A DNA stretch of 20,093 nucleotides from a virus. The position numbers were made by a program, and so were the translations under genes. Under the pieces are notes generated by a model. The model was not told the origin of the DNA, did not search any database, and saw only the letters and a program-made list of their open reading frames with translations. The first letter of the stretch is position 1; each line of letters starts with the position of its first letter. The DNA lies in the IMG/VR virus record IMGVR_UViG_3300031456_000210, positions 1 to 20,093 of that record. The stretch is one strand, 5' to 3'. Below, in pieces: positions 1,230 to 18,863 of this stretch.

Positions 1230-1598
1230 CTACAGGTCCTTTGCGATCAATCGCGCCAACGGCGCGTAGCCCTTGCTCTTCAATGTGCGCTCCCAGCCCG
1301 CGCGGCCGATGATCAGGGCGCGGCGGCATCCCCGTGCGCGGCCCCAGCCCTCGGCCCTCGGCAGCAATTCGCCTTCCAGCTCCTCACGCGCTCCGCCGGC
1401 GAGCCAGAGCACCAGGCGACGTTCGCGCGGATCATTTTCGATGGCCGCCACCAGCGCGGCGGCGCGGCCTGCCCAGAACTGGGCGTCGCCGGCGATGACT
1501 GCTTCCCGGACGTCGTCCAGCGTATGTGTCCGGCCGGCATGATCGAGCGCCGCGGCGAGCCAGGGCGTGCATCGCGCCCAATCCTCCGCGAAACTCAC
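1230..1598 (-). CDS. GNAT-like small phage protein
   Basis: This 122-residue protein starts with GTG, overlapping the upstream stop as GTGA (1595-1598). The middle holds a hydrophobic strand (RRLVLWLAGGA, about residues 60-70) and a Glu-rich helix. The C-terminal stretch IIGRAGWERTLKSKGY is typical of small acetyltransferase-like proteins found beside podovirus tail genes; T7 internal virion protein A also shows acetyltransferase similarity. Whether it is catalytic is unknown, and no clear acetyl-CoA P-loop (Q/RxxGxG/A) is visible. It lies between the stabilisation protein and the putative ejection protein and is probably a virion or virion-assembly component. Confidence 0.6.
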   Translation of the reverse strand: MSFAEDWARCTPWLAAALDHAGRTHTLDDVREAVIAGDAQFWAGRAAALVAAIENDPRERRLVLWLAGGAREELEGELLPRAEGWGRARGCRRALIIGRAGWERTLKSKGYAPLARLIAKDL

Positions 1599-3127
1599 CG
1601 CTGCCCCGCTGGCGCAACATCGAAAACCGGCCGCCCGATCCGGCAGGCCGTAGGCGCGCTGGCGCCCGCGAACCGCACCTTGAACAGGCGGCCTGAAACC
1701 AGGATGTCCGCCTTGGCGTCCCCCGGCGCCATGGCGGGCGCGGTCACAACCTGCTCCGCGTCCTGCGGATGGCGCCGGGCCGTGACGCTCACGCTCACCG
1801 GTCCCGCCTGGTCCTTGAAGTCGGGCCAGACCTCCCGGACCAGGAGGCAGGTCTCCGGGTCCAGGTAGCCGTCGGCGGTCTCGATGAACCAGGCGAACGG
1901 CTGGCCGTCCGCCGAATCGCCCTTCTCGTGGTGATAGACCTGCCCATCATAGGTGGCGCCCACCGGATAGGCCGATGGCCCGGCATCGACGAAGGCCGTC
2001 CTGGCCATCATCCCGCGGTGCCACGCCCCGGCGTCGGGGCCGCTCAGGCAAAGCGCGACGTAGCGGCTGTTCTCATAGCCCTCGCGGCTGTCCGGATAGT
2101 CGAAGCGGACCTCGGAGAACTCGGCGTTGGACGAGGCGACTACCTTGTCGCCCTGGCTGGCCGCCAGCTTGTCGGCGAACGCCTGCCGGATCGGGCATGG
2201 GATCGGCTCGGCCTGACCGCCGACGGCATAGCGATAGAACTGCCGGTCGGGGCTGGCCCAGAACGCCGTCTGGCCCACCACCACCGCGGCGTTCGGCCCG
2301 ATCAGCCCGCAGTTGCGCCCCACCCGATCGAAGCGCCACGGCTGGTTCAGCGACCCGACATAGGTCCCCAGGAACATCGCATCGCTGGTCCAGACCAACA
2401 TGTACGGCCCGCACATCCGCCCCGCCACGATCCGCCCGCCGCCGGTCAGCACATACTCCCGCGCCGTCGAACCCGACGCCGAAGTGCTCCACTGGGTGTT
2501 GTTGCGGATCGAGGAGTGGCGGATGCAGAGCGGATTGAAGACGCCCGAGACCTCTTCGTTGCAGCCCAGCGCGAAGACCTGGTAGCCGCCGTTCAGCGGC
2601 GCCACCAGCATGTGGGTCACGTTGGCGGGTGCATTCGCCAGGGCCGCCGCCTTGCTGGCCGTCGTGTTGGTCCAGGCGAAGATCGTCTGGTTGCGCGGGC
2701 TGGCCAGCAGCTGCTGTCCCCACGCCCCGAACGACCAGGTCAGCGGGAAATAGTCCGTCGCCGACGGCAGGCCATAGCCGCCCATGCCATAGGCGCCCGT
2801 GCCGTAGCCCGCGCTCCCCGCCCCGTCGATCGCGCCCGGCATGAACCCCGAGGCCGGCGTGATGTCGAACAGCGCCCCGCCCTGCCAGAGCTGCAGCTTC
2901 GAGTGGGTCCCGAAGGCGATGTTCAGCACCGCAGCATTGTCCGTCCACGGAAACACCGTGCGGCAGACGCCGGTCAGCGCCTGGCCGGTCAGGCCCTCCC
3001 AGCCGCCGATCACCTGCGCCCGTCCCAGCCGGAACCGCACATTGGACCCGTCGGCCCAGCGCCCGCTCCCGACAAAACTGGTGTCGTCGCCGTTCAGACC
3101 CGGCGGAGGATCGAGAGGAATACGCAT
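1595..3127 (-). CDS. Packaged-DNA stabilisation / tail nozzle protein (P22 gp10-like)
   Basis: The chosen ATG gives 510 residues beginning MRIPLDPPPGLNGDDTSF. An in-frame TTG at 3199 would add 24 residues, but they are unlike the rest and would overlap the plus-strand hicA start, so I reject it. The N-terminal pattern (PPG...D.....GRWADGSNVRFR.GR....GGWE) and the Trp/Gly-rich repeats that follow suggest a beta-propeller-like fold. They match alphaproteobacterial podovirus proteins that take the place of P22 gp10, which plugs the portal after DNA packaging. It starts the leftmost late-gene block after cargo region A. Family placement comes from recalled patterns and gene order, so gp10 equivalence is probable rather than proven. 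Confidence 0.68.
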   Translation of the reverse strand: MRIPLDPPPGLNGDDTSFVGSGRWADGSNVRFRLGRAQVIGGWEGLTGQALTGVCRTVFPWTDNAAVLNIAFGTHSKLQLWQGGALFDITPASGFMPGAIDGAGSAGYGTGAYGMGGYGLPSATDYFPLTWSFGAWGQQLLASPRNQTIFAWTNTTASKAAALANAPANVTHMLVAPLNGGYQVFALGCNEEVSGVFNPLCIRHSSIRNNTQWSTSASGSTAREYVLTGGGRIVAGRMCGPYMLVWTSDAMFLGTYVGSLNQPWRFDRVGRNCGLIGPNAAVVVGQTAFWASPDRQFYRYAVGGQAEPIPCPIRQAFADKLAASQGDKVVASSNAEFSEVRFDYPDSREGYENSRYVALCLSGPDAGAWHRGMMARTAFVDAGPSAYPVGATYDGQVYHHEKGDSADGQPFAWFIETADGYLDPETCLLVREVWPDFKDQAGPVSVSVTARRHPQDAEQVVTAPAMAPGDAKADILVSGRLFKVRFAGASAPTACRIGRPVFDVAPAGQR

Positions 3128-3188: not shown

Positions 3189-3443
3189 GTGAACAGCAAG
3201 CATGCTCGGACCTTACGGGCGATCTATCGGCAGCCTGTTTCGGCCACGATCTCGTGGACCGACATCGAAGCGCTGTTCAAAAGCGTCGGCTGCGAGACGA
3301 TTGAAGGACCCGGCTCAGCGGTCTCGTTCAGATACGGGCAGCTGGTCGAGTTCTTCCATCGGCCGCATCCCGCCAAGGAAGCGAAGCAATATCAGGTGCG
3401 CGCCGCCCGGGCGTTCCTGGCCAGGATCGGAGTCGCCCCATGA
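3189..3443 (+). CDS. hicA: HicA-family toxin (type II TA, mRNA interferase fold)
   Basis: This 84-residue protein starts at GTG. The ATG at 3181 runs into a stop after three codons, and no strong Shine-Dalgarno is visible. The pattern NSKHARTLRAIY..PV......W.DIEAL....G......GPGS....... FHRPHP.KE belongs to the proteobacterial HicA subfamily that starts MNSKH. HicA toxins bind and cleave mRNA through a dsRBD-like fold. The classical G-S-H motif is absent here (GPGSAVSF), and conserved His residues lie in FHRPHP (about residues 56-61), as expected for this subfamily. The stop overlaps the hicB start as ATGA. The gene is on the plus strand, against the phage operon. Confidence 0.88.
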   Translation: MNSKHARTLRAIYRQPVSATISWTDIEALFKSVGCETIEGPGSAVSFRYGQLVEFFHRPHPAKEAKQYQVRAARAFLARIGVAP

Positions 3444-3775
3444 GTACGATGACCTACAAGGGCTACGCGGCGCGCGTCGAGTATGACGATGCCGACGGCA
3501 TCTTCTTCGGGCGGGTGGCCGGATTGCGCGATGGGATAAACTTCCACGGCCAGACGGTGGATGAGCTGCGCGCCGCATTCCGAGAGTCAGTCGATGGGTA
3601 TCTCGATGTCTGCGCACGTATCGGCAAGACGGCGGAGAAACCCTACTCTGGCCAGCTCATGGTTCGCGTAGCGCCCGAGGTTCACGCCAAGGCCGCCCTC
3701 GCCGCCGAGCTCGCCGGCAAGAGCCTGGCCAAGTGGACGGAAGAGACCCTGCGCCAGGCCACGGCCGAACTTTAG
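3440..3775 (+). CDS. hicB: HicB-family antitoxin
   Basis: The product is 111 residues. Residues 1-60 carry the HicB partial RNase H-like fold (YKGY.ARVEYD..DGIFFGRV.G..D.I.F.G..VDEL..AF.ESVD.YL). Residues 73-110 form a ribbon-helix-helix DNA-binding segment (MVRVAPEVHAKAALAAEL). HicB neutralises HicA and normally autoregulates the operon. Toxin-first order with a 4-base overlap is usual for hicAB. Next comes the shortened glycosyltransferase-like gene, 11 bases after the hicB stop. Both partners look intact, so the system is probably functional. Confidence 0.9.
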   Translation: MSTMTYKGYAARVEYDDADGIFFGRVAGLRDGINFHGQTVDELRAAFRESVDGYLDVCARIGKTAEKPYSGQLMVRVAPEVHAKAALAAELAGKSLAKWTEETLRQATAEL

Positions 3776-3786
3776 GCAATCGCTCA

Positions 3787-4305
3787 GTGCCGGCTGCAAG
3801 TCCTTCGATCTATCTGGCGACCATCTGCTACGGCGGCATGGCGCACGCCGAGTACATGGCCGCGCTCCTGGCCTTCCGACCCGCCTGCGCCGCCAGGGGC
3901 GTTGGCCTGCACATCGACCTGGCCGGTGGCGAAGCCCTGGTCGGCCGCGGCCGCGCCACCCTGATGGCCAAGTTCCTGATCTCCGACGCCACACACCTGC
4001 TGTTCGCAGAGAGCGATCGGGGGTTCAGCCCGGCGGCCGCCTTCGCCCTGCTGGACGCCGATCAGGGCGTCTCCGGAGGCGGTCCCGAAGATGGCCTCCT
4101 GATGATCCGCCGCCGCGCCGCCCAGCGCATGACGGACGCCCACCCCGAGCTGCGCGCCAAGCTCGGCGACATGACAGGCCTCGCCGTATCGGAGGCCACC
4201 TTCGTCTTCGACCCGGTGGTTGAGGCGGATACCGGTCGCTACCTCACCGACTTGGACGCGTTCCGGGCACGGTGGCAGAGGATCACCAAAATACCAGAAA
4301 ATTAG
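3787..4305 (+). CDS. Internally shortened glycosyltransferase-like protein
   Basis: The GTG start gives 172 residues; longer in-frame starts would run back into hicB. The N-terminal part (PSIYLATICYGG.AH..YM, then AGGEALVGRGRATLMAKFL, then THLLFAESDRGFSP at about 72-85) matches a family of small GT-A-type proteins common in caulobacterial phages and genomes. In those proteins the last motif normally reads as an acidic metal-binding D-x-D/S-D site. The next segment passes from VSGG straight to LLMIRR, and from memory about 50 or more residues usual in the family are missing. The end (ARWQRITKIPEN) also departs from the family. It is probably a decaying or recombinant gene. Its 3' part is repeated after hipA. 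Confidence 0.7.
   Translation: MPAASPSIYLATICYGGMAHAEYMAALLAFRPACAARGVGLHIDLAGGEALVGRGRATLMAKFLISDATHLLFAESDRGFSPAAAFALLDADQGVSGGGPEDGLLMIRRRAAQRMTDAHPELRAKLGDMTGLAVSEATFVFDPVVEADTGRYLTDLDAFRARWQRITKIPEN
4156..4275 (+). repeat. Left copy of glycosyltransferase 3'-segment repeat flanking hipBA
   Basis: This 120-base segment encodes 40 residues from AKLGDMTGLAV to AFRARW inside the shortened glycosyltransferase-like gene. It aligns without gaps to 6145-6264. Counting by hand gives 28 base differences but only 6 residue differences, most at third positions. The two copies are therefore diverged alleles of one gene family and not a fresh duplication. The hipBA operon sits between them. Confidence 0.85.
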
Positions 4306-4313
4306 TCGCCAAA

Positions 4314-4430
4314 CTTGACGATTTAATCAACTTTTGTGATATTATTCATCATAATAGAAGACTTATTGGATATTGAATGAATTTCCACAATTCTTCACTC
4401 TTGACGATTATCATCGACTTGCGTATTTAA
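4314..4430 (+). promoter_or_regulatory. AT-rich hipBA promoter/operator region with a repeated TTGACGATT site
   Basis: The 145 bases before hipB (4306-4450) are strikingly AT-rich next to everything around them. The decamer CTTGACGATT occurs twice, at 4314-4323 and 4400-4409. Each contains a TTGACG box resembling a -35 element. For the first, GATATT lies 17 bases further on (4338-4343), or TATTAT at 19 bases (4340-4345). For the second, TATTTA lies 17 bases further on (4424-4429). These could be tandem promoters or two HipB operators; HipB-type repressors bind repeated sites upstream of their own operon. Which role applies cannot be decided from the sequence. Confidence 0.5.
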
Positions 4431-4450
4431 GTCACCGAAAGTGGAGACTT

Positions 4451-4801
4451 ATGAAGTTCACAAACCTTCTTTCCGATGAGGCGGCACAGACCGAATTGGG
4501 CGGTCGCCTAGCCCAGATTCGCCTGGGTCGCGGCTGGACTCAGGCTGAACTCGCGGCCTCTGCGGGGGTCTCGAAAAGTACGGTCGAGCGCCTCGAGGCC
4601 GGCGCTTCCACCCAACTCACAAACCTTCTGAGATGCCTTAGGGCGCTTGATCACCTGGACGGCTTGGAACGCCTGCTGCCCGCGGCGATCCCCGGCCCAA
4701 TAGATTTGCTCAAGCGACACGGCAAAATCCGCCAGCGCGCCCGGCCGACCGCCGTCCCGCCGGAGCCCAGCAAGCCGTGGGCCTGGGGCGATGAAAAATG
4801 A
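4451..4801 (+). CDS. hipB: HipB-like XRE-family antitoxin / autorepressor
   Basis: The ATG at 4451 gives 116 residues and is preceded by GGAG six bases upstream, so I prefer it to the in-frame TTG at 4373. Residues about 18-75 are a lambda-repressor-type helix-turn-helix (LAQIRLGRGWTQAELAASAG, then VSKSTVERLEAG). The tail is basic and Pro-rich (RARPTAVPPEPSKPW). Its stop overlaps the hipA start as ATGA. In HipBA systems HipB binds DNA operators and holds HipA inactive. The low-GC promoter immediately upstream fits autoregulation. Confidence 0.87.
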   Translation: MKFTNLLSDEAAQTELGGRLAQIRLGRGWTQAELAASAGVSKSTVERLEAGASTQLTNLLRCLRALDHLDGLERLLPAAIPGPIDLLKRHGKIRQRARPTAVPPEPSKPWAWGDEK

Positions 4802-6105
4802 CCACCGTCGCGGAGGTGCAGCTATGGGGCCGCCGCATCGGCGCCGTGGCCATTCAGGATGATGACCCTGCCGCCGCGTTCCAGTACGACCCGGCGTTCA
4901 TCGGCAGCGGCATAGAGGTCGCGCCGCTGATGATGCCGCTCGGCCGCGCGATCTTCACGTTTCCGGCGCTCAACCCAAAAAGCTTCCACGGTCTCCCGGG
5001 CCTACTGGCCGACGCGCTCCCGGATCGATACGGCAACGCCCTGATTGACGCATGGCTGGCGACCCAGGGCCGTACACCCGAGAGCTTCAACGCCATCGAG
5101 CGTCTCAGCTACACGGGAGCCCGCGGCATGGGCGCGCTTGAGTTCGCGCCGGCGACGGGGCCTCGCCCGCGCAACGCCAATCGAATCCATATCGATGCCC
5201 TCGTCGAATTGGCCTCGGAGGTGCTGACCCACCGCAACGACCTGAAGGCCTCCTTCGCGGACGAACACAAGGCCGGGGCCATGCGCGACATCCTGCGGGT
5301 CGGCACCTCGGCGGGCGGCGCCCGCGCAAAGGCGGTGGTGGCCTGGAACCCCCTGACCGACGAGGTCCGCTCGGGCCAAGTCGATGCCGGTCCCGGCTTT
5401 GAATACTGGCTCCTGAAGTTCGATGGCGTACAGGGCAACAAGGACCGCGAACTCGCCGACCCGGCCGGCTACTGCGCCGTCGAATACGCCTACTCCGAGA
5501 TGGCCCGCGCCGCCGGTATCGAGATTTCTCCCTGCCGGCTTTTGGTGGAGGGCGGTCGCCGTCACTTCATGGCCAAGCGGTTCGATCGGCTCGACGGCGG
5601 CGGCAAGCTGCACATGCAGTCGCTCGCCGCCCTGGCTCACCTCGACTTCAACGACGCCAACGCCGCGTCCTACGAACAAGCGTTTCTGACCATGCGCCGG
5701 ATGGGCCTTCCGATCGGCATGCTCGAAGAGCAGTTCCGCCGGATGGCGTTCAATATCGTCGCTCGGAACCAGGACGATCACGTCAAGAACATCGCCTTCC
5801 TGATGGATCGCACCGGCACGTGGCGACTGTCGCCGGCCTTCGATATCACCTGGAGTTACAATCCCTCGGGCGACTGGACCGCCCACCACCAGATGTCCAT
5901 GAACGGCAAGCGCGACGGATTCGACCGCAGCGACTTCGACGACTGCGCCGACACTCTTTCGCTCAACCGGCGTCGCACACGCGCGATCCTCGACGAAGTT
6001 CAGGCCGCCGTCGCCCAGTGGCCCCGCTTCGCAGACGCCGCCAACGTCGACCCCCACTGGCGCCGCAGCATCGACCCCAGCTTCCGCGAATTTCCCGCGG
6101 CTTGA
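4798..6105 (+). CDS. hipA: HipA-family serine/threonine kinase toxin
   Basis: The 435-residue length is close to E. coli HipA (440). Domain order is complete: N-subdomain with LPDRYGN (74-80) and TGARGMGALEF (106-116); the glycine-rich ATP loop GTSAGGARAK (169-178); FMAKRFDR (257-264); the catalytic loop NQDDHVKN (324-331); and a metal-binding AFDITWS (347-353). Family members phosphorylate targets such as glutamyl-tRNA synthetase, halting translation and giving persistence. All visible catalytic residues are present, so the kinase should be active. The gene ends directly against a fragment of a glycosyltransferase gene in the same reading frame, separated only by the hipA stop codon. Confidence 0.92.
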   Translation: MTTVAEVQLWGRRIGAVAIQDDDPAAAFQYDPAFIGSGIEVAPLMMPLGRAIFTFPALNPKSFHGLPGLLADALPDRYGNALIDAWLATQGRTPESFNAIERLSYTGARGMGALEFAPATGPRPRNANRIHIDALVELASEVLTHRNDLKASFADEHKAGAMRDILRVGTSAGGARAKAVVAWNPLTDEVRSGQVDAGPGFEYWLLKFDGVQGNKDRELADPAGYCAVEYAYSEMARAAGIEISPCRLLVEGGRRHFMAKRFDRLDGGGKLHMQSLAALAHLDFNDANAASYEQAFLTMRRMGLPIGMLEEQFRRMAFNIVARNQDDHVKNIAFLMDRTGTWRLSPAFDITWSYNPSGDWTAHHQMSMNGKRDGFDRSDFDDCADTLSLNRRRTRAILDEVQAAVAQWPRFADAANVDPHWRRSIDPSFREFPAA

Positions 6106-6306
6106 AGCTCTGCCGACGCTGCGCTCGCGACAGCCGAATTCCTCGCCAAACTCGGCGACATGACCGGCCTGGCGGTCGGCGAAGCGACCTTCGTCTTCGA
6201 TCCGATGGTCGATGCGGAGACAGGACGCTATCTCACGGACCTAGCTGCGTTTCAGGCGAGATGGCGAGCTTTAGGCCCCGGGGTAAGTTCACCGCGCGCG
6301 AGGTGA
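6106..6306 (+). pseudogene. 3' fragment of a glycosyltransferase-like gene fused behind hipA
   Basis: The frame of hipA stays open after its TGA up to a TGA at 6304-6306. From about 6136 it encodes AEFLAKLGDMTGLAVGEATF and continues to AFQARWRALGPG, the C-terminal segment of the glycosyltransferase family also present at 3787-4305. There is no start codon or ribosome site for this piece and no N-terminal domain. It is a remnant left at the right-hand junction of the hipBA block. Its end (after RWRALG) keeps slightly more of the family sequence than the left copy does. Confidence 0.8.
6145..6264 (+). repeat. Right copy of glycosyltransferase 3'-segment repeat flanking hipBA
   Basis: This is the partner of 4156-4275: ungapped over 120 bases, with 92 identical bases and 34 of 40 identical residues by hand count. 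It starts 40 bases after the hipA stop. Confidence 0.85.
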
Positions 6307-6396
6307 TATTCTGGTCAGAGAAGGTAGGATTTGGAATGCAATCGCTGTTCGTCGGAGCGGCACCGGCTTAGGCCACTCTCAGATTGGGTTGGATGA

Positions 6397-7230
6397 ATGC
6401 TTATTGAGGCGAAGCCGCGGGCAAGGGAGCGTCTCGCCGAGGGCCTAAAGTTGCTTTCCGAGGGCCGGTACGCCGAGGGGTGGCCGCTCTACGAGGCGCG
6501 ACTTGAAATACCCGAGCTGCACAGCCCGCCACTGCCCATCGCTTTGCCGATCTGGCAGGGCGAGGACCTGATCGGGAAGCGGCTTGTGGTGTTCGGCGAG
6601 CAGGGGCTAGGCGATCAGATTATGTTCGCCCGGTTCATCCGAGACCTCACGGCGATGGGTGCCGCACTCGGATATCTCGTCAGTCCTCCGGTGGCACCGT
6701 TATTCCCTGGCTCGGTGGGCGTCGGCGAAGGTTCGCGCTTCACTGTGCAAGGGGATTATCGTGTCGCCGTGGGGTCGTTGCCCCACCGACTCGGTATCAC
6801 GCTGGATACAATCCCGACGCGCCGCTATGTCCACATTGAGGCCCCCCGCGTCGGCGGAGTGGGGATCATCACGAAGGGTAACCCCAAGCACTCCAACGAT
6901 GCCCATCGCTCGCTCCCTCTCGATTACGCCGAGCGGCTGCTACGTCTAGGCCGAAGCCTGGAACCCGAGGTGACGGGCTCCAGGAACCTCCTGGACACCG
7001 CCCGCCTCATCGCGAGCCTCGATCTAGTCGTCACTGTAGACAGCGCGGTCGCCCATCTTGCGGGCGCCATGCACAAGCCGGTCTGGATACTATTGCCCGC
7101 CCACGAAACGGATTGGCGGTGGCTAAGCGGAAGAGCCGACAGCCCATGGTACCCTACCGCTCGTCTCTTCCGCCAGCCGGCACCAGGGGATTGGGAAAGC
7201 GTATTCCACGAGGTCGAATCTAGTCTCTGA
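6397..7230 (+). CDS. GT9/TPR-type glycosyltransferase
   Basis: The 277-residue product has a short TPR-like start (ERLAEGLKLLSEGRYAEGW, residues 11-29). The first Rossmann half is marked by VVFGEQGLGDQIMFARF (64-80) and the second by LVVTVDSAVAHLAGAMHKPV (210-229), then WILLP and a W-x-W/R-x-DSPWYP region. This is the heptosyltransferase-like (GT9/GT-B) set often linked to TPR proteins. It would transfer a sugar in the cytoplasm, perhaps onto a tail protein or a host surface glycan that controls phage adsorption; the acceptor is unknown. The ATG has GGA a few bases upstream. The last 11 bases overlap the convergent Gly-rich tail gene. Confidence 0.75.
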   Translation: MLIEAKPRARERLAEGLKLLSEGRYAEGWPLYEARLEIPELHSPPLPIALPIWQGEDLIGKRLVVFGEQGLGDQIMFARFIRDLTAMGAALGYLVSPPVAPLFPGSVGVGEGSRFTVQGDYRVAVGSLPHRLGITLDTIPTRRYVHIEAPRVGGVGIITKGNPKHSNDAHRSLPLDYAERLLRLGRSLEPEVTGSRNLLDTARLIASLDLVVTVDSAVAHLAGAMHKPVWILLPAHETDWRWLSGRADSPWYPTARLFRQPAPGDWESVFHEVESSL

Positions 7231-7807
7231 CGAAGACGGCCAACACAAGGCCAGCTCCACCGGGTGTCGGCACGATGCCGTCGTTTGTTCCACCGCCCCC
7301 CGGTGAGTTGTTCGCCTGCGAAAAGGCCGCGATATCCGCACCAGGACCGCCCCGGTAGGGCAGATTGGCTGGTGCTCCGGAGCCAGCACCAGCACCGCCC
7401 GTTCCCGCGCGGCCGCCGCCTGTACCCAGGCCGACGCTCGCGCTGGTCGAGCCTGCGAGGTTCACGTCCCCTCCAGTCGCCACGCCCACCGCCGAACCGG
7501 CTGCCCTTCCCGCAGTCGCGACGATGCCGTTAGGGAACGTGACCGTAGTATCGCTGAGCGTGGGAGTACCAACGACAATCTGAACGGTGCTGACAATCGA
7601 GAGGCTGACTGTTTTCTCAAAGTAGGCACCTGAAGCACCGTTGCCCCCGTGGCCGCCCGGACCCCAAGCCACGAACTTCCACTGGCCAGCCCGGGGCGGC
7701 GTGAATATCCAAGATCCCGCCGGGAATATATGGGGCGGTTGGCCGGGGTCTGGGTTGGACTTCCGCCCGTCCATGGTCTGAGCAACAAGACCCTTGACGC
7801 CGAGCAT
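7220..7807 (-). CDS. Glycine-rich tail adhesin/appendage protein
   Basis: This 195-residue protein has a short N-terminal strand region (IFPAGSWIFTPPRAGQWKF, about residues 27-45), then WGPGGHGGNG. A long C-terminal part (about 120-190) is dominated by Gly runs (TGGGRAGTGGAGAGSGAP, PGGGG, PGGAG) and ends in hydrophobic VLAVFVRD. Gly-rich C-terminal domains of this kind occur in phage receptor-binding adhesins (polyglycine sandwich type). It is the last of four coupled small genes and its start overlaps the upstream stop as TGATG. Host-recognition function is inferred from composition and position. The 3' end overlaps the plus-strand glycosyltransferase stop by 11 bases. Confidence 0.62.
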   Translation of the reverse strand: MLGVKGLVAQTMDGRKSNPDPGQPPHIFPAGSWIFTPPRAGQWKFVAWGPGGHGGNGASGAYFEKTVSLSIVSTVQIVVGTPTLSDTTVTFPNGIVATAGRAAGSAVGVATGGDVNLAGSTSASVGLGTGGGRAGTGGAGAGSGAPANLPYRGGPGADIAAFSQANNSPGGGGTNDGIVPTPGGAGLVLAVFVRD

Positions 7808-8220
7808 CAGTAGAGACCGCCTTCGGCCTTGAACACCACGCCGTTCGCGATGGTGGTTCCGATGGCGATTTCTAACCCGAAGCCGGCCCGGAGATAGAAG
7901 GGAGAGACATCGGTATAGCCAAAGTCTGTCTTGGGATTCGCGACCGTAGCGCTGGGCGCGACGACGGCCATCAGCGCCGAATCAATCAGCGTTTTGGTGG
8001 TGCCATCGTAGGCATAGACAAGGCAATTCAAGGCCGCGGCAATAGCGGCACGCGGCATCGCATACAGCCGAGCGATCCGAGCGCCGTTCAGGTTGTCCGC
8101 GCGATCCAACAACGTGACTGTCGTCACGGGCGCGTTAAAGGCGACATCTGCCGTGGTCGCCACGGCTTGGCGGGCCAACGGCGTCTGCGGCGTGATGATC
8201 GAGTTGGCGGTTACGGCCAT
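7807..8220 (-). CDS. Small phage structural/appendage protein
   Basis: The product is 137 residues, mostly beta-forming, with no signal peptide. Motifs include APVTTVTLLDRADNLNGARI and a Phe/Tyr-rich DFGYTDVSPFYLRAGFGLEI near residues 98-117. I do not recognise the family by name; it looks like a small virion decoration or tail-appendage subunit. The start is certain: an unusually full Shine-Dalgarno (AGGAGGT) precedes the ATG by four bases. This strong site suggests a high-copy product compared with its coupled neighbours, which rely on overlaps. Confidence 0.6.
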   Translation of the reverse strand: MAVTANSIITPQTPLARQAVATTADVAFNAPVTTVTLLDRADNLNGARIARLYAMPRAAIAAALNCLVYAYDGTTKTLIDSALMAVVAPSATVANPKTDFGYTDVSPFYLRAGFGLEIAIGTTIANGVVFKAEGGLY

Positions 8221-8229
8221 GAGTACCTC

Positions 8230-8814
8230 CTAAAGGGCCACGGCGAGCGCGATGGCTCGGCCGAGAAGGGCGTTGGAATCGGTGAGGTCGGCGCTCGAGA
8301 GCGACGCCCAGCCCGCGTTCGTGCCGTCGGTCTTGACGAACTTGCCGGTGTTGCCGGCCTGGGCGGGCAGGTTGCCGGCGTTGTAGGACCAGGCGGTCGC
8401 GGCCACGTAGTCCTTGATCGAGGATCCGCCGTAGCCCGGCGTCTTCACGTTCGACCCGTCGCAGAAGACCTGCACGATGTCGCCCGGGTCGACGACCACC
8501 GTGGCGCCCGCGCCCGTGGTCAGCGTCACCGCCCCGGAGCAGGCGTTCCACACCAGATAGGCCTTACTGACGGATGGAATGGTCAGAGTGAACGGCCCGG
8601 CCCCGGTGAACTTCACCATCGCCGCGCGCGCCTCGTCGTCGGCGGCGTTGGCGGTGGTGAGTGCGGTGTTGCCGCTCAGCGGCTTGGTCAGCCAGCCGGC
8701 CACCGCATAGTCGGCGTGGGCCAGGACGGCGTTCAGCTTGTCGCCCCACAGATTGATGTTTTCGCCGGTGAACTGCAGCTCGAAGCGCAGGGATGAGGAC
8801 CAGGATGAAGGCAT
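8230..8814 (-). CDS. Phage tail-fibre-like protein
   Basis: This 194-residue protein opens with LRFELQFTGENINLWGDKLN (residues 9-28) and AVAGWL, a head-binding motif seen at the start of many short tail fibres in alphaproteobacterial prophages. A beta-rich middle follows (FTLTIPSVSKAYLVWNACSG, VVVDPGDIVQVFCDGSNV). The C-terminal KFVKTDGTNAGWAS pattern is also frequent in tail fibres. It probably sits at the tail tip and contacts the host surface. It is short for a complete fibre, so a partner adhesin (the Gly-rich gene downstream) is likely. Its ATG overlaps the upstream stop as TGATG. Confidence 0.7.
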   Translation of the reverse strand: MPSSWSSSLRFELQFTGENINLWGDKLNAVLAHADYAVAGWLTKPLSGNTALTTANAADDEARAAMVKFTGAGPFTLTIPSVSKAYLVWNACSGAVTLTTGAGATVVVDPGDIVQVFCDGSNVKTPGYGGSSIKDYVAATAWSYNAGNLPAQAGNTGKFVKTDGTNAGWASLSSADLTDSNALLGRAIALAVAL

Positions 8815-9062
8815 CAGACGATCACGGCTCCCGTGTCTTGGCGGATCCAGTGGACCCCGTCGGAATGGGCGAGGATGTTCAGGTCGGTCACCAGCGCGAC
8901 GCAGCTCGGATAGGTCGCCGCCGGCGGCAATCCGGCTTGAGCCACAGTGAAGACCGGCTTCGGCTCCGCCGGCTGCTGCAGGTCGAGCACCGCGTCGGAC
9001 AGCGACTTCAGCACCGCGCGCAGGGGTTCGGGTATTCCCGGCCCGATCGGCAGCAGCGTCAC
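8814..9062 (-). CDS. Small phage structural protein
   Basis: The product is 82 residues from a GTG start whose bases overlap the adaptor stop as GTGA (9059-9062). Longer frames upstream are antisense or shifted reads of the adaptor gene. The N-terminus (LLPIGPGIPEPLRAVLKSLS) is followed by a Pro-rich linker (PAEPKPVF) and a C-terminal region ending HWIRQDTGAVIV, whose SDGVHWIRQDTG resembles short tail-fibre or spike peptide motifs. Function is not known. Strict coupling to the adaptor on one side and the tail fibre on the other argues for a virion role. Confidence 0.6.
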   Translation of the reverse strand: MTLLPIGPGIPEPLRAVLKSLSDAVLDLQQPAEPKPVFTVAQAGLPPAATYPSCVALVTDLNILAHSDGVHWIRQDTGAVIV

Positions 9063-9691
9063 AGCCCCGCGCCCGCGCCCACGAAGGGCGAGGCCAGTTC
9101 GGTGGTCAGCGTCCGCGCCGCCCGCGACCGCGCATCCTTGGAATTGATCTCTTCGACCGCGCGGCCCAGCCGCGCTTCGTAGGCGGCCGACAGCTCCGCA
9201 TCGCGCAGGAACGGCGCGGCCTCGCTGAGCGTCGCGAACAGGTAGGCGTCGGGATAGTCGCTCAGCAGCGCGTTGGTCGGCGCCGCGTCCGAGAGCGCGA
9301 ACTTCGCCAGCATCCGCAGCGTGAAGCCATAGGCCTGGTCGCACGGCCGGTCGAAGGCCAGCGTCGCCCCGTCCACGGTCCACGCCGCCGGCTCTCCGCG
9401 CAGGCTCGACGCCCCCACCAGCCTGGGCTCGATGAAGGCCAGCGCCTCGCGCCCCGCCGCCCGGGTGATCCACAGCGCCAATGGCTCGGCGAACCCCGCC
9501 GGCAGCGGCAGCGTCCGCGCACCGACCACGCCGGTCAGCGCGGTCTCCACCTCGGCCAGCCTGGCCCGCAACACGCGGTTCAGCCGGGCCTCGGCCAGGG
9601 TGATGAACTCGGGTATCCGCGCGGTCAGGTCCGCGCGCACCAGCCAGTTGGCCGCCGCCGCCTGCATCTCGGCATAGGTCGTGATCGCCAT
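9059..9691 (-). CDS. Head-tail adaptor protein (P22 gp4 position)
   Basis: The product is 210 residues. It begins MAITTYAEMQAAAANWLVRA and carries LTARIPEFITLAEARLNRVL, the recognisable N-terminal signature of the phage adaptor family common in alphaproteobacterial podoviral prophages. The body is helical, with SDYPDAYLFATLSEAAPFLRD near residues 135-155. Adaptors of this kind ring the portal and connect it to the tail, like P22 gp4. The ATG at 9691 is preceded by AAGGAA. The gene is separated from the coat gene by the plus-strand exported-protein gene, and its leader faces that gene's leader (9692-9776). Confidence 0.75.
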   Translation of the reverse strand: MAITTYAEMQAAAANWLVRADLTARIPEFITLAEARLNRVLRARLAEVETALTGVVGARTLPLPAGFAEPLALWITRAAGREALAFIEPRLVGASSLRGEPAAWTVDGATLAFDRPCDQAYGFTLRMLAKFALSDAAPTNALLSDYPDAYLFATLSEAAPFLRDAELSAAYEARLGRAVEEINSKDARSRAARTLTTELASPFVGAGAGL

Positions 9692-9776
9692 GCAATTTCC
9701 TTCACGCTGGTTGCGTTTTATCTTGAAGACATTCTCTGGTTGTGCATGTCTTCGTTCGGGGAACGGGGAAATCTCA

Positions 9777-11204
9777 ATGCACATCAAAGTGGCCGGCGTT
9801 GTCGCTGGCGCCGTCATCGCCTTGTGTCTGGCGCAACCCGCGGCTGCGGCCGAGGCGACGACGCCGTCTTGCTTGCCGGAAGCGCCCAAGCCGACCTGGT
9901 CGACCAAGTTCCGGCCGCCCAAGGGCGTTCAGAGGAGCCAATCCAAGGCGGACTTCAACGAGGGCCGCCTCGGTGCGCGGGGATGTCAGATCGAGGCCTT
10001 GAGGCAAAGTCTCGCCAGCGGCGCGATGGACCCAACCGACAATCCGGAGGCGGTTGCATACTGGGAGGTCAACCGGCGCGCGGCCGAGATTGCGCGCCTC
10101 TATCACTCGCGCTCAGGTCGCCAGCAGTGGTGGATGGACACCGCCTCCAAGGGTGTCGCCCTGGGCGCCGCCGGCTATCTGCTCAGCGGCGGCGCAGGCG
10201 CCACGACGCAGGCCTATTGGGGCTACGGCGCGCTGGCGTTCGTGCTGGTCGCCCAGTTCAACGCCTACGAACCAACCCGCGATCTCTTCTTCGGCGGCTC
10301 ACTGGGGGTCTACGAGATCGCCGGCCGTTACAAGGTGATCCGCGACAACCGCAACAACTTGGCGGCGATCGTGAAGCCCCCGGCCGGGTCAGCGCGAGAC
10401 GACGCGCTGAAGGCGGCCAAGGCGACTTGCATCGATCTTCGACGGGAAATTCCGGCCATGGAATCCTGGACACCGAACCGGGGCGACAAAGTTGCGATCC
10501 TGCCGGAAGCCCGTCGGGTGCTGGCGGCCTGTCGGGACTTTGAGTCCAACTTTTCCGCCCTGAAGATTCTCGTGGAGGCGCCGAGCATCCAGGATGCCGC
10601 TCTGAGCGCGAAGTATGCGACCGACATCCTTGCCCTCGACGCCAACGTGGTCTTGCGAGACCAGGACCTTCGCTACACGCCGTTCGAAACCCTGACCGGT
10701 CTGGCGGCCGCGCCCTTCGACGCGGCCAGCACGCTGCTCACCGGCGACAACGGCAAGAAGGCCATTGACGGCCTCAAGACCCAGGCGGCCTTTGCCAACC
10801 TCGATCTTGATCTGTCGCCGATCAGTATTCCTGGCGTGCCCAAGGCCACCGCGGCCTACATCGCCTTGGCGCCGGCGGTCTACGGCCGTCTGGAGCCCAC
10901 CGTTGTTCGCGAGGCCGGCACGAAGAAGGAGCCGAAGGATCCCGACGCCAAGACGGCCTCCGCCGCGGTCGGCAAGCTCGACGACGCGGTTGCGGGGCTC
11001 AATGGCGCCTACGGCGAAGTGGCCAGCGCATCCAAATACGCCACCGATCTGTTGACCATGGCCGCGGCCAGCCACCTGAGCTTCACCTACGACGCCACAA
11101 CCCGATACATAAAGGTTGGACCGTTGGCCCCTCCGGCCGAGCCGTCGTCGACAGGGCCGAAGACTGCCGGCGCGCCCGCGGGAACGCCGGCAGCCCAGCC
11201 CTAG
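9777..11204 (+). CDS. Exported protein of unknown function (prophage moron)
   Basis: The ATG at 9777, preceded by GGGGAA, gives 475 residues and places a clean signal peptide at the start: MHIKVAGV, a hydrophobic core, then QPAAAAEA with probable cleavage after Ala about 24-26. A second hydrophobic region (about residues 120-158, rich in Gly/Ala, with YWGYGALAFVLVAQF) could be membrane-inserted. The rest is helical, with several Cys. The C-terminus is Pro/Ala-rich linker (APPAEPSSTGPKTAG). I recognise no family. It is on the plus strand between the adaptor and coat genes and is not obviously virion-related. Cell-envelope modification or superinfection exclusion would fit such a gene, but that is conjecture. 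Confidence 0.75.
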   Translation: MHIKVAGVVAGAVIALCLAQPAAAAEATTPSCLPEAPKPTWSTKFRPPKGVQRSQSKADFNEGRLGARGCQIEALRQSLASGAMDPTDNPEAVAYWEVNRRAAEIARLYHSRSGRQQWWMDTASKGVALGAAGYLLSGGAGATTQAYWGYGALAFVLVAQFNAYEPTRDLFFGGSLGVYEIAGRYKVIRDNRNNLAAIVKPPAGSARDDALKAAKATCIDLRREIPAMESWTPNRGDKVAILPEARRVLAACRDFESNFSALKILVEAPSIQDAALSAKYATDILALDANVVLRDQDLRYTPFETLTGLAAAPFDAASTLLTGDNGKKAIDGLKTQAAFANLDLDLSPISIPGVPKATAAYIALAPAVYGRLEPTVVREAGTKKEPKDPDAKTASAAVGKLDDAVAGLNGAYGEVASASKYATDLLTMAAASHLSFTYDATTRYIKVGPLAPPAEPSSTGPKTAGAPAGTPAAQP

Positions 11205-11220
11205 CCGGAACTCCGGCTAG
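11201..11220. terminator. Hairpin shared by the two converging gene ends
   Basis: CTAGCCGG-AACT-CCGGCTAG forms a perfect 8-bp stem with a 4-base loop. The left arm contains the TAG stop of the exported-protein gene (11202-11204); the right arm contains the TAG stop of the coat gene on the other strand (11217-11219). There is no U-run on either side, so termination may be partial or Rho-assisted. Position between convergent genes makes a bidirectional terminator the simplest reading. Confidence 0.6.
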
Positions 11221-12422
11221 TTGTTGGCCAACCGGCAGGCGAGCTGCGGCCGGATGGTCTTGTAGCCGTAGAGCACGTCCAGCCGGCAGGGGAACTTGTC
11301 GTTGTTGATGTCGTACTGGCGCACGATCCGCATCGACACCCCGTCGAAGACCTCGCGCGCGGCGAAGTCGACGCCGCGCGGCATCACCATGTCCGCGGAG
11401 GCAAACGCGAACGCCCCCTTCTGATAGGCCATCGAAATCCCGTGCGCGGTGGAGATACTGCCGGCGAAGACCAGGCCCGCCGTGGCGTTGGGGCTCGGGA
11501 TGACCACGTTCTGATAGGCTCCGGCCAGCACGATCGAGGGCGTGATCTGCACCGAGCCCGCGCCGCCGGCATAGTCCACCGCCACCGCGAACTGCTGCAG
11601 AATCCCCGTCGATTGCTTGGTTTCCGGATGCACCCGGAAAACGCCGGCGATCGTAAAGATATCGCCCTTGACCGCCGCGCCCGTCCCCGTCGCCACCGTG
11701 ATGGCCGCCACCGGGGTCGCCGAGATCGGCAACACGCCGACCAGGGTGCTGGTGGTGTAGGCGCCGGTCGCCGCGCCGCGGGCGTGCGACGGCCACAGGG
11801 TGTTCTCCATGAAGTCGAACCCGGCGGTCCGGCCCATGAATCCCTCGCGGTTCTGCTTGGCGATCGACGTCTGGTCGTTGAACAGGCCCTTCAGCGCATC
11901 CACCAGGTCCACGTTGTCCTGGGTGTTCAGGTTGCAGGTCCGCCCGCTCAGCGGCGCCAGGTTGTCGACCAGGATCTTGCGGCCCTGCAGCACCCGGGTG
12001 AAGGTCGCCGCGCCCGCGCCCAGCACTTGGTTGTAGACGTCCTTGTACATGCTCATGGCGTCCGCCTCGATGTTGGCGGCCAGTACGCTCATGGCGGGTT
12101 CCAGCACCCGGTCGGAGAAGTCGTCCAGGTTCATGGTCAGGTCGACCGAGGTGAAATTCAGGTCGACGCCCTTCTGCGTCTGCACCTTCAGGTCCACGGC
12201 GGCTTCGGTGGTGTCGGTGACGCCCAGGTTCAGCGTCGGGCCGCTTCGGACCACATACTGGTTGGGCAGGCGCACCTTCAGGGTGTCGCCGATCTTGGCG
12301 CCCTGGCGGGCGAAGCTGTCGTCGTATTCGCGCGTGATCGAGCCCACGAAGTTGAGCTTCTGGTGCAGCACGCGCAGCGCCTCGCGCGTCACCGCGGTCG
12401 GCGTCAGGAAGGCGTTGGCCAT
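11217..12422 (-). CDS. Major capsid (coat) protein, P22 gp5-like HK97 fold
   Basis: The 401 residues are slightly shorter than P22 gp5 (430). It begins MANAFLTPTAVTREALRVLH, with VGSITREYDDSF, GDTLKVRLPNQYVVRSG, DLNFTSVDLTMNLDDFSDRV and ADAMSMYKDVYNQV following. This is the usual order of the P22 coat family, whose subunits form the procapsid shell around scaffold. The C-terminal part (RIVRQYDINNDKFPCRLDVL, then YGYKTIRPQLACRL) is also typical. The ATG has AAAGGA upstream. In P22-like phages coat follows scaffold directly; here region C (TA pair and IS remnant) intervenes, so coat may need its own promoter or long read-through. Confidence 0.85.
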   Translation of the reverse strand: MANAFLTPTAVTREALRVLHQKLNFVGSITREYDDSFARQGAKIGDTLKVRLPNQYVVRSGPTLNLGVTDTTEAAVDLKVQTQKGVDLNFTSVDLTMNLDDFSDRVLEPAMSVLAANIEADAMSMYKDVYNQVLGAGAATFTRVLQGRKILVDNLAPLSGRTCNLNTQDNVDLVDALKGLFNDQTSIAKQNREGFMGRTAGFDFMENTLWPSHARGAATGAYTTSTLVGVLPISATPVAAITVATGTGAAVKGDIFTIAGVFRVHPETKQSTGILQQFAVAVDYAGGAGSVQITPSIVLAGAYQNVVIPSPNATAGLVFAGSISTAHGISMAYQKGAFAFASADMVMPRGVDFAAREVFDGVSMRIVRQYDINNDKFPCRLDVLYGYKTIRPQLACRLANN

Positions 12423-12707
12423 CTGTCGGTCCTTTCAGATTGGGTTGGGTTTGAAGCCGCGCGAAAGCCTCCGAGGCGCGCAAGCGCGCTTGCTCGGCGG
12501 CGGCCATATCGGCCGGCGGCGGATTTGGAGACGCCTCGCGCCCGGGCTCTTGGCCGTTTGCGGTCAGGCCGCGCGGCCGGAATGGGCGGAAGGCGTGGCG
12601 TGGAAGCCGGGCTCTACTAGAACAGAGCGGTCGGGACTTGGACTCTTGTCACGGCCCAGTTTGGCCGGGTTAAGGGTAGTGGGTCAGTTTGAAATCTGAC
12701 CGCGTGG
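12423..12707. other. Non-coding leader of the coat gene with two small hairpins
   Basis: No supported gene lies in these 285 bases. On the minus strand, just after the MazF-like stop, two short inverted repeats follow. One is GGTCAG/CTGACC (arms 12682-12687 and 12696-12701, 8-base loop); the other is CGGCC/GGCCG (12652-12656 and 12663-12667, 6-base loop). Neither has a U-run; they may slow or end transcription of the toxin gene. No convincing promoter for the coat gene is visible. The coat frame stays open for a distance upstream in a shifted frame, but without a stop near the coat start, so I do not call a gene. Confidence 0.4.
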
Positions 12708-13157
12708 CTATTCGCCTGCGACGACCTTGAAGGGAGTTGGCAGGCCCTTGGCCTCGCGCCGCTTCAAGAGTCTGCGAAGCCGGTTCTGCTGATCCTCAAG
12801 GAGCGAGCCAATGATCGGCGTCTCGTAGACCTTATCGTTCGGGGAGGCGAACCAGTCGTCGTCCCACATCAGCCACTTGATCAGATCCATATCGAACCGG
12901 GTCGCCTGATTGAGGCCCGCGTACTGCATGGCGCGAAAGTTCGTCACCCGAAAATCATTTGGGCGCGCTTCCGTCTTCAGGTTGGAGGTTCCGTAGGCGA
13001 CCTGGATAGCCCAAAGGCCCGGCTTATATTCCGAAGCGGCGAAGACCAGGGCTGGATGCGGTTCCACCGCAGGCAGCCCTGGCTTCTGATCGTATGGGAA
13101 CTTCGACCACACCACATCAAACGGCTTAGGCCGGGTGTGGGGAGGGTAAGCGGCAAT
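12708..13157 (-). CDS. PemK/MazF-like toxin
   Basis: The conserved part reads AYPPHTRPKPFDVVWSKFPY, then HPALVFAA, IQVAYGTSNL, ATRFDMDLIKWL and TPIIGSLLED. This set matches the longer alphaproteobacterial PemK-like growth inhibitors (FVVWC.FPY...RP.LVL...VAYGTS..ATRFDLD). Such proteins are ribosome-independent or tRNA/mRNA-cleaving endoribonucleases. The start is unclear. The expected N-terminus falls at an ATT codon (13157). The nearest upstream alternatives are CTG (13166), overlapping the stop of the small gene before it, and TTG (13259); a GTG at 13115 would cut into the conserved region. The lowest-risk choice is the domain boundary used here. It stands in region C, between scaffold and coat. 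Confidence 0.72.
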   Translation of the reverse strand: MAAYPPHTRPKPFDVVWSKFPYDQKPGLPAVEPHPALVFAASEYKPGLWAIQVAYGTSNLKTEARPNDFRVTNFRAMQYAGLNQATRFDMDLIKWLMWDDDWFASPNDKVYETPIIGSLLEDQQNRLRRLLKRREAKGLPTPFKVVAGE

Positions 13158-13159
13158 GC

Positions 13160-13342
13160 CTACCAGGTGATCGCTTCGATGACGCGGCCACAGGCAAGCT
13201 CGTCCTGCGGGTTCTTCTCGGCGATGAAGTCGTGCATCTCTTGCGGGACTTCGTCCCAATAGGTGGCGGGGTGGGGTTCCGGCGCCAACGGAGCCCCGGG
13301 GACCGAGCGTACAACGCGCGGCTTTCGAGGTTCGTCGTTCAT
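13160..13342 (-). CDS. Small protein, possible antitoxin partner of the PemK-like toxin
   Basis: This 60-residue protein has its ATG at 13342, seven bases after AGGAG, so the start is secure. It is Pro- and acid-rich (PRVVRSVPGAPLAPEPHP, then YWDEVPQEMHDFIAEK) and ends GRVIEAITW. It has no recognisable DNA-binding domain. Position directly upstream of a PemK/MazF-like toxin, with the end of one meeting the start of the other, is the standard antitoxin-toxin arrangement. Antitoxin function is inferred from position and size only. Confidence 0.6.
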   Translation of the reverse strand: MNDEPRKPRVVRSVPGAPLAPEPHPATYWDEVPQEMHDFIAEKNPQDELACGRVIEAITW

Positions 13343-13403
13343 GTGAATCTCCTGGTGCCCGACGCGGATTGAGGGATCGTCGGGCCGAAACAAGGCGGCG
13401 TCA

Positions 13404-13430
13404 ATGATATCAGAACGACCAACACGTCAA
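13404..13430 (-). promoter_or_regulatory. Promoter-like site for the PemK-like TA pair
   Basis: On the minus strand TTGACG (13425-13430) and TATCAT (13404-13409) are separated by 15 bases, a short spacing. They lie about 60 bases before the ATG of the small upstream gene. The IS remnant ends further upstream, so this would give the TA pair its own transcription inside the late operon. Confidence 0.4.
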
Positions 13431-13550
13431 CCTAACCAAGGGTTGCCTACCGGTCTACTGCAACATTCTGGCCACACCGCGCTTAAGCCTTCGTGTCCAA
13501 TATGGTGACCCCTCCCTAAGGTGTCCAGCGCCGCGACGCATTGACCTATG

Positions 13551-13844
13551 TCAGGCTGCTTTTACCCGCTTCTTGTACGGCCCCCGTGCCGCAGGCTTGT
13601 CTGCCGCTTCTACGATCGCGACCAGATCGGCCATTTCCCAGAGCCTGTCGGTGACGCCCGCCGCCATCGCCGGGGTCATCCGCAGGGTCTGGTGGATGCG
13701 GACGAAGTTGTAGTAGGCGAAGCGCAGGGCGATGGCGTGGTTCTCCAGCTTCTTGGAGAAGTCATTCGTGAGGCGCGTGAACCGGCGCATGTGCATCCGC
13801 ATCATCAGGTTCTGGCGCTCCACAAATGAAGTGGAGGCGTGAGC
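13551..13844 (-). pseudogene. IS1-family transposase, 3' remnant
   Basis: The frame carries the C-terminal part of an IS1-family transposase of the alphaproteobacterial type: TSFVERQNLMMRMHMRRFTR, LTNDFSKKLENH, YYNFVRIHQTLRMTPAMAAG. The catalytic core upstream is missing. Homology begins abruptly at about 13844, only about 18 bases past the scaffold stop; further upstream the frame just reads the scaffold gene out of frame. About 97 residues remain of a protein usually near 250-300. The element is inactive and may mark how region C entered. The 208 bases from 13343 to 13550 hold the promoter-like site described separately and probably the old IS end. There GTGTCCA appears twice around GGTGACCCCTCCC, but no terminal repeat can be assigned. 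Confidence 0.78.
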
Positions 13845-13861
13845 CATGCTCGCACCAGCCA

Positions 13862-14695
13862 TCATCGTCCCTTCGCCATCTGGGCGTTGCGCCGCGCCAT
13901 CCAATCCTTGGTGGCCAGTTCGTCGCGAACCCCGCCGCCGCCAGCTCCGGCGGCGCCCACCTGTACCGCGGGACGGACGCTCTGGGCCTGGGCGAGCGAC
14001 CGGGCCTGCCCGTCCTGCCGGTTCGCTTGGTCGGCCTGGTAGCCTTTGTGCAGCAGCTTCCAGAGCCTGGGATCGGCCATCTGCGACAGTTCCTCCAGCG
14101 TGACGCCGAAGGCCTGGGCGTATTCCACCAGCTTGTTCGCAACCTCCGGCGACCAGCCCTCGATCTCGCGTTGCAGCGTCCGGCCGGTCTCGGCCATCTG
14201 TTCGGCGGCTTCGCGGGCGGCCTGGAGGTCTCGCCGCGACTCATGGTGGCTGACCGCATAGGCCAGACGTTCGCGCGCCTGGGACAGATGCTGGAACCGG
14301 CCCCATAGCGCCTGCGCCGCGTGCGGGTCCTGCGCGGCGTAAGCCTGCCAGTCGACGTCCCGGAAGCCGTCGATCTGGTGGTCGAGCGCGGCCAGCGTCA
14401 CCCGGTCCTGACTCACCCGGCCGATGGCCTGGGCCTGCTCGGCCAGCGCCCGCCGTTCCGCCTCGGCCGCACGCCGATGCTCGGCCAGCTCCTGGGTCTT
14501 GCGGGTGTAGTCCGCCTGCCGCAGGAACGCGCCCTTCAGCGCGCCCGGCAAGGTGTGCACCTGCCCGTCGAGTTCCACCTCGAAGGCATCGTCCGCGTCG
14601 TCCTGATCATCAGGTTCGCCCGCGTCCTCGCCGGCCAGCAGTTGCGCAGGCGCGAGGTCGTCCTCGCCCACGATGTTGGCGTCTTCGTTTTCCAT
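13862..14695 (-). CDS. Head scaffolding protein
   Basis: The 277-residue product has a very acidic N-terminus (MENEDANIVGEDDL to about residue 38). A conserved FEVELDGQVHTLPGALKGAF / RQADYTRKTQELAEHR region follows, then a long charged coiled-coil, and a short basic tail (WMARRNAQMAKGR). The acidic head, helical body and basic C-terminus are the standard plan of phage scaffolds such as P22 gp8, whose basic end binds coat. Position after portal and before coat agrees. The ATG is preceded by AAAGGA. The stop is followed closely by the IS remnant, but the C-terminus looks intact. Confidence 0.82.
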   Translation of the reverse strand: MENEDANIVGEDDLAPAQLLAGEDAGEPDDQDDADDAFEVELDGQVHTLPGALKGAFLRQADYTRKTQELAEHRRAAEAERRALAEQAQAIGRVSQDRVTLAALDHQIDGFRDVDWQAYAAQDPHAAQALWGRFQHLSQARERLAYAVSHHESRRDLQAAREAAEQMAETGRTLQREIEGWSPEVANKLVEYAQAFGVTLEELSQMADPRLWKLLHKGYQADQANRQDGQARSLAQAQSVRPAVQVGAAGAGGGGVRDELATKDWMARRNAQMAKGR

Positions 14696-14710
14696 GATGT
14701 CCTTTCGCGC

Positions 14711-14995
14711 TCAGCGCAGGGGGGTGCTGTAGGGCGGCATGCCCCGGTCGAAGCCATGGGCGGCCTTGGCGGCCACGTGGGCGGTGCGGTCCCTGATCCA
14801 CCGGCCCGTCTCGGCGACTTGGCGGGCTATCTCGTCATGATGGTCGTAAAGCCACTCGGCTCCCGCCTCGCCCGCCAGGGCTTTGGGAACCGTCAGCAGG
14901 GCGCCGGGCGCGGACCTCCGATTCAGCCTTTTCGCGGTGATTTCCGGCGGCCTCTGGATTTTTGCACTGCTGATTGTGGGTTTGATTTTCCTCAT
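14711..14995 (-). CDS. Small phage protein between portal and scaffold
   Basis: The product is 94 residues with a very basic N-terminal third (MRKIKPTISSAKIQRPPEIT, then AKRLNRRSAP). An amphipathic stretch (AEWLYDHHDEIARQVAETGR) follows. The ATG at 14995 has GAGG five bases upstream, preferred over the adjoining TTG. I do not recognise the family; many podoviral clusters have a short unannotated gene at this position. It begins 25 bases after the portal stop and ends 15 bases before the scaffold start. Confidence 0.6.
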   Translation of the reverse strand: MRKIKPTISSAKIQRPPEITAKRLNRRSAPGALLTVPKALAGEAGAEWLYDHHDEIARQVAETGRWIRDRTAHVAAKAAHGFDRGMPPYSTPLR

Positions 14996-15020
14996 CAAGG
15001 CCTCGCACCCGCTGCACTGA

Positions 15021-16928: not shown

Positions 16929-16948
16929 GGCGCAGCCTCACATGAAAA

Positions 16949-16975
16949 CGCCCGCGCGAGCGAGCCCGGCGGGTG
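16949..16975 (-). terminator. Terminator/attenuator-like hairpin in the portal leader
   Basis: On the minus strand a 7-bp stem (CACCCGC with GCGGGCG, one G-U pair) around a 13-base loop is followed directly by TTTTC. It lies downstream of the promoter-like site and 20 bases before the portal TTG start. It could stop transcripts arriving from the toxin/immunity genes, or act as an attenuator that needs antitermination in the late phase. Confidence 0.5.
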
Positions 16976-17070
16976 GAAAGGCGGCTCGAATGGAGCCGCG
17001 ACGATCGATCGGAAGGAGCGTAGCGGAGCCTCACCGCAGGGCGGCGGGCGCACCAATCAACGCTGACAAA

Positions 17071-17099
17071 ACTCTAGCAAAAGCGCGCGCGGAAGTCAA
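17071..17099 (-). promoter_or_regulatory. Promoter-like site upstream of portal
   Basis: On the minus strand TTGACT (17094-17099), a 17-base spacer and TGC-TAGAGT (17071-17076) form a good sigma-70 site. The extended GCTAGAGT fits the caulobacterial housekeeping -10 (GCTANAWC-like). Transcription would start near 17064, leaving a leader of about 135 bases that contains the hairpin at 16949-16975. Confidence 0.6.
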
Positions 17100-17115
17100 G
17101 AACAAAGAGAGAACA

Positions 17116-18497: not shown

Positions 18498-18571
18498 GAG
18501 AATTCTCCAGGGAATGGGTTGCAGGTGCTCGGAGTTCGGAGCCAGATGCCCATGATCGACAGCCCTTCCGC

Positions 18572-18747: not shown

Positions 18748-18863
18748 GCGAGCGAGCCCGGCGGGTGGAAAGGCGGCCCTCACATCAGGCCGCGACGATC
18801 AATCGGAAGAGCGAACCGGAACCTCACCGCACAGCGGCAGGCGCACCAATCAACGCTGACAAA

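Follow-up and report, generated by a model that had tools for sequence, protein, structure and literature searches.

A hipBA operon between two diverged 3' segments of a glycosyltransferase-like gene in a phage cargo site

A viral record of IMG/VR, IMGVR_UViG_3300031456_000210, analysed over its whole length of 20,093 bases (hereafter the window), carries a hipBA toxin-antitoxin operon between two copies of the 3' segment of a glycosyltransferase-like gene, which encode nearly the same protein with heavily diverged silent sites. The left copy closes an intact short-form gene, and the right copy is a 3' remnant. With moderate confidence, the arrangement is best read as mosaic 'moron' cargo, in which the short-form gene and hipBA would have become attached, by a non-homologous joint, to the 3' end of a resident gene that had diverged. 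It offers a readable scar of the entry of a host toxin-antitoxin operon into a phage cargo site, and HipA relatives are hardly recorded in phages, being found in 4 of 50,697 phage records, all at less than 37% identity.

The cargo site in the window and in its relatives

The window is a fragment of a phage of the Phenylobacterium/Caulobacterales kind, and the bacterial relatives of its glycosyltransferase-like gene belong mainly to Phenylobacterium and other Caulobacterales. The portal, major head and virion structural genes are on the minus strand, and a group of plus-strand genes sits between the minus-strand genes at 1595-3127 and 7220-7807, as follows.

1595-3127, minus strand: virion structural gene (phrog_3287; PHROG E-value 1.6e-52), left flank of the cargo site
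3189-3443, plus strand: hicA toxin gene (PF07927 HicA_toxin, 34.1 bits for a cut-off of 27; phrog_8887, 'moron')
3440-3775, plus strand: hicB antitoxin gene (PF05534 HicB, 1.3e-17; phrog_9151, HicB-like antitoxin, 3.6e-38)
3787-4305, plus strand: left gene, predicted complete short-form glycosyltransferase-like gene, 172 aa, GTG start (short form also in G101 and G058; phrog_1574; compact AF2 model; weak GT-A matches)
4145-4276, plus strand: left copy of the repeated 3' segment (direct repeat and codon analysis)
4277-4450, plus strand: AT-rich hipBA control region with -35, -10 and operator blocks (blocks common to most of 20 chromosomal hipBA loci)
4451-4801, plus strand: hipB antitoxin gene (PF01381 HTH_3, 1.7e-10; TIGR03070 couple_hipB, 1.1e-10, under its cut-off)
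4798-6105, plus strand: full-length hipA toxin (kinase) gene (PF07804, 7.7e-50; PF13657, 2e-17)
6088-6144, plus strand: right joint, with the end of hipA, its stop codon and about 40 nt of uncertain origin (chromosomal hipBA likeness over by 6087; left-gene likeness from about 6145)
6145-6276, plus strand: right copy, 3' remnant of a second short-form glycosyltransferase-like gene (repeat and codon comparison)
6397-7230, plus strand: GT9-type gene (PF01075, 7.8e-08)
7220-7807, minus strand: variable gene on the strand of the structural genes, bounding the cargo site on the right (L012, L034, L044 and L055 have related sequences)

The virion structural gene of the left flank has counterparts of 79-90% identity at the equivalent position in many relatives. 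In 33 or so related contigs these structural flanks recur, 0.6-4.3 kb apart, and the cargo between them varies, including GT4-, GT9- and phrog_1574-type glycosyltransferases, methyltransferases, alpha/beta hydrolases and a Fic protein. With its conserved flanks and differing contents, the site thus has the features of a phage cargo hot spot. In the window, a complete hicAB pair (HicA toxin domain, then HicB antitoxin; 3189-3775) lies directly upstream of the left gene, so that two toxin-antitoxin systems, hicAB and hipBA, share one cargo site. The GT9-type gene of the window is devoid of the N-terminal TPR repeats found in its L033 homologue. Elsewhere in the window, the start of the portal gene has a second, partial copy near the end of the record (16676-16891 and 18542-18754, about 74% identical).

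The earlier note on this DNA, made from the sequence alone, had proposed a search of related prophages for an uninterrupted gene at this locus, and such a gene was found. At least six relatives have one uninterrupted family gene at the site, namely the viral contigs L033, L034, L091 and L092 and the bacterial-genome contigs L151 and L153. It is followed by GT9 in L033, L034 and L151, and in a third bacterial genome (L154) the family gene also adjoins a GT9 gene. Among the relatives examined, none had two copies of the family gene at the site, and tblastn searches detected no hipBA there.

The two copies and their divergence

The longest direct repeat detected in the window is a 132-nt pair, at 4145-4276 and 6134-6265, whose members are 76% identical and 1989 nt apart. 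Between 4156-4275 and 6145-6264, 28 of 120 nucleotides differ (4, 3 and 21 at codon positions 1, 2 and 3, respectively) and 34 of 40 residues are identical, which confirms the counts and the mostly silent character of the differences given in the earlier note; immediately beyond these limits, likeness drops to background. The NG86 method yields a dN of 0.084 and a dS of about 2.0 for these segments, hence a dN/dS of about 0.04 over 40 codons. Third positions are identical at 19 of 40 codons, and remote family relatives share 13-22 of 40; the L033/L034 pair, comparably alike in protein (35 of 40 residues), retains 31. Silent sites are thus saturated, and a recent (tandem) duplication, which the earlier note had already discounted, is ruled out by the dS of about 2 and the third-position identity of 19/40. 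The combination of saturated silent sites and a conserved protein indicates that the two segments parted long ago and that both were under purifying selection for most of the time since, in keeping with the idea that two genes of the same family had evolved apart.

Both copies had initially been described as 3' segments. This holds for the right copy, which is a fragment, and has to be amended for the left one, which closes a complete open reading frame (3787-4305). The long-form relatives have 208-232 residues; the left protein, of 172 residues, is without their central stretch and C-terminal tail. The same shortening occurs in two genomes of the Phenylobacterium group, in G101 at this very locus, before GT9, and in G058. 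The possibility that the left copy is a broken gene was rejected, as the same short form is present in two genomes, in one of them at the same locus. As judged from these comparisons, the left gene is complete for its subfamily and the right copy alone is a fragment. About the last 44 codons of this second glycosyltransferase-like gene are left, between hipA and GT9, and they continue beyond the RW residues into RALGPGV, to be compared with RALGGEV in L033 and RALLPQV in G058. A tblastn search of phage records with the right fragment returned no match.

The AlphaFold model of the left protein is compact, with a pLDDT of 90.5, and its top PDB matches are almost all GT-A enzymes, albeit weak ones (E-values above 0.001, TM-scores of about 0.3-0.5). 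The long-form relatives match phrog_1574 well (down to 3.6e-33) and the left gene weakly (1.9e-4). The acidic motif of the family, SEDYAFCRRW, reads TDLDAFRARW in the left copy and TDLAAFQARW in the right copy; the left copy has ESD instead of DxD and DL instead of ED, and so departs from the motifs of active GT-A enzymes. Since both the ED and DxD motifs are changed, the short branch may have lost catalysis. Short phrog_1574-like proteins without the ED motif and the central stretch, and with a frame that is still open, are encoded at 3787-4305 in the window, at 7656-8195 in L151 and at 3665-4276 in L152, and a non-catalytic role of this branch is possible. The family comparisons thus point to a branch of a phage glycosyltransferase-like family that is short and probably without catalytic activity, with a conserved C-terminal part and saturated silent sites.

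It had been predicted that each segment would group with a different phage lineage. The opposite was obtained: in a maximum-likelihood tree of 24 family members, in which the subfamily is thinly sampled with two other members, the left gene pairs with the right segment as its sister, with an ultrafast bootstrap of 96 and an SH-aLRT of 85, an outcome that the earlier note had named as speaking against its reading. The two segments share 76-80% amino-acid identity, and either shares at most 60% with any other member found. Given that the short-form subfamily is thinly sampled, nearer relatives of each segment may exist. This grouping counts against the mosaic reading insofar as it would suit old tandem paralogues equally well. 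hipBA would then have been inserted between two anciently duplicated short-form neighbours, removing the 5' part of the second. Paired genes of another kind do occur in one relative, L062, in which GT9-type genes give two matches about 1 kb apart. In contrast, none of the relatives examined has two copies at the site, and none of 390 Caulobacteraceae genomes has two short-form copies. An origin from tandem paralogues is therefore a distinct but less probable possibility, to which roughly a one-in-four weight would be given.

The hipBA operon and its joints

In HipBA systems, HipB restrains the kinase HipA and, by way of the operator, represses the operon as well. In the window, the gene of the HTH antitoxin lies upstream of hipA, co-directional with it and overlapping it at 4798-4801, and has an operator in front. 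HipA has an N-terminal Couple_hipA domain (PF13657) and a C-terminal HipA_C kinase domain (PF07804), both over curated cut-offs, and its NQDDHVKN motif, at residues 324-331, can be aligned with HipT/HipA_C proteins of solved structure. Its nearest 18 proteins from genomes of Caulobacteraceae share 72-78% identity with it over nearly the full length. The control region contains a promoter-like site (4315-4343), and the blocks TTGACGA and AGTCxCCGAAAGTGGxGAxTTA that precede hipB are common to most of 20 chromosomal loci. With both HipA domains, these control blocks and the near-full-length likeness to chromosomal loci, hipBA is, on present comparisons, a complete operon of host type that is foreign to the locus, and it would be expected to function like other type II pairs. 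The control region has a GC content of about 34% in a contig of 66% GC. That hipBA was brought in from outside, as had been suggested, is borne out, the closest relatives found being chromosomal and from Caulobacteraceae. The control region (4303-4451) seems to have two diverged promoter/operator blocks, CTTGACGATT at 4314 and 4400, 86 nt apart, and the chromosomal relatives seem to have a single one.

The limits of the operon can be drawn closely on both sides. The DNA likeness to chromosomal hipBA loci extends over the control region and the operon and, on the right, is lost between positions 6042 and 6087; likeness to the left copy begins at about 6145, right after hipA. The earlier observation that the right fragment is in the hipA frame was confirmed; it follows directly past the stop codon (6103-6105). 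On the left, the likeness stops at RW (4276), about 26 bases or less from the first operator-like block of hipBA, so that the hipBA unit probably supplies the DNA that encodes the last residues of the left protein.

The two joints differ in how often they were recovered. A sister contig, IMGVR 3300028786_000020 (L009/L119), is 99.4% identical to the window over 5983-17095, and 100% identical over 5983-7797, a stretch that includes the joint between hipA and the right segment. A chance error of one assembly thus does not account for this joint. For the left joint (about 4277), the assembly of the window is the single source. An artefact in which contigs from two phages were joined in or near hipA might be suspected, given that the window comes from a viral contig and that hipA is where the sister contig stops, at 5983. 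However, the right joint was found in a separate record, and the left gene, the hipBA control region and the flanks are in their usual place and orientation, and such an artefact is unlikely. At the other end of the shared stretch, the sister contig (L009:2274-5323) has about 3 kb more than the window at 17085-17095, including an IS1595-family transposase gene. In the window the two sides of this extra DNA abut directly at a repeat, the stretch 16949-17107 being similar to 18741-18881; a deletion or insertion between repeats is suggested, or else a collapsed assembly.

The tight limits of the operon and the mainly silent differences between the copies would also fit a hipBA that travels as a small unit and brings with it, in recoded form, the 3' end of a glycosyltransferase-like gene of phages. 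Such a unit would enter the gene without breaking it, replace its 3' end and push the original one rightward. This would represent a recombinase-less route for a toxin-antitoxin pair into phages. Against it, only hipB and hipA lie between the copies, with no integrase or recombinase within 4156-6264, and no second junction of hipBA with a 3' glycosyltransferase segment was found in viral contigs or Caulobacteraceae genomes. It is thus very improbable that hipBA travelled, or entered this gene, in that manner.

Origin of the arrangement and comparison with known systems

The earlier note attributed the arrangement to recombination between homologous genes. Recombination and the old divergence of the partners stand, but a homologous crossover between two genes would by itself leave one hybrid gene rather than both copies on either side of hipBA. 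To arrive at an entire left gene followed by hipBA and a 3' remnant, a non-homologous joint after hipA is needed, or else an insertion between tandem paralogues or the entry of a unit with its own 3' end. The first of these, which fits normal phage mosaicism, is the reading preferred here. The ancestral phage would have had a single glycosyltransferase-like gene followed by GT9, between two structural genes of the opposite strand. In this lineage, a block would have arrived that comprised a complete short-form glycosyltransferase-like gene and, at its downstream end, a complete hipBA operon of host type. It would have been fused, by a non-homologous joint, into a second gene of that subfamily, long diverged from the first. 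We infer that the right copy is this resident, of which about the last 44 codons would have survived. This mosaic origin is supported by the saturated silent sites in a conserved protein, by the uninterrupted single gene at the site in relatives together with a left gene complete for its subfamily, and by the end of hipBA likeness by 6087, the diverse cargo of relatives and the presence of the right joint in a second contig. Against this origin, searches found neither a donor phage with a short-form gene adjoining hipBA nor a phage with an intact right-type gene; degenerate-peptide scans of viral contigs with the left protein, the short-form alignment and the segment pair revealed no further member beyond the sister contig.

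Literature searches retrieved no account of this arrangement. It is nonetheless ordinary phage mosaicism, a clear example of a known process, and neither the hipBA scar nor the short branch changes the general picture of that process.

As in the 'moron' hot spots of phages, plus-strand accessory genes lie between conserved structural genes of the opposite strand, vary by relative and have a remnant at a joint. Unlike in those hot spots, the acquired operon is flanked by two copies of one family with saturated silent sites, which makes the scar readable, and hicAB and hipBA occupy one site. In the case of HipBA type II systems, the hipB-hipA order with overlap, both HipA domains, the HTH antitoxin and a control region of Caulobacteraceae type are shared, but the pair of the window is on a phage contig. 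Relative to phrog_1574, which is of unknown function and GT-A-like, the short branch is without the central stretch, the C-terminal tail and the acidic ED motif. Finally, prophages of the icd / phage 21 type integrate into the 3' end of a gene and provide a substitute 3' end. There too, two diverged gene 3' ends with mostly silent differences flank an insert, but the window has no integrase or sign of a mobile unit, and the likeness is one of shape only.
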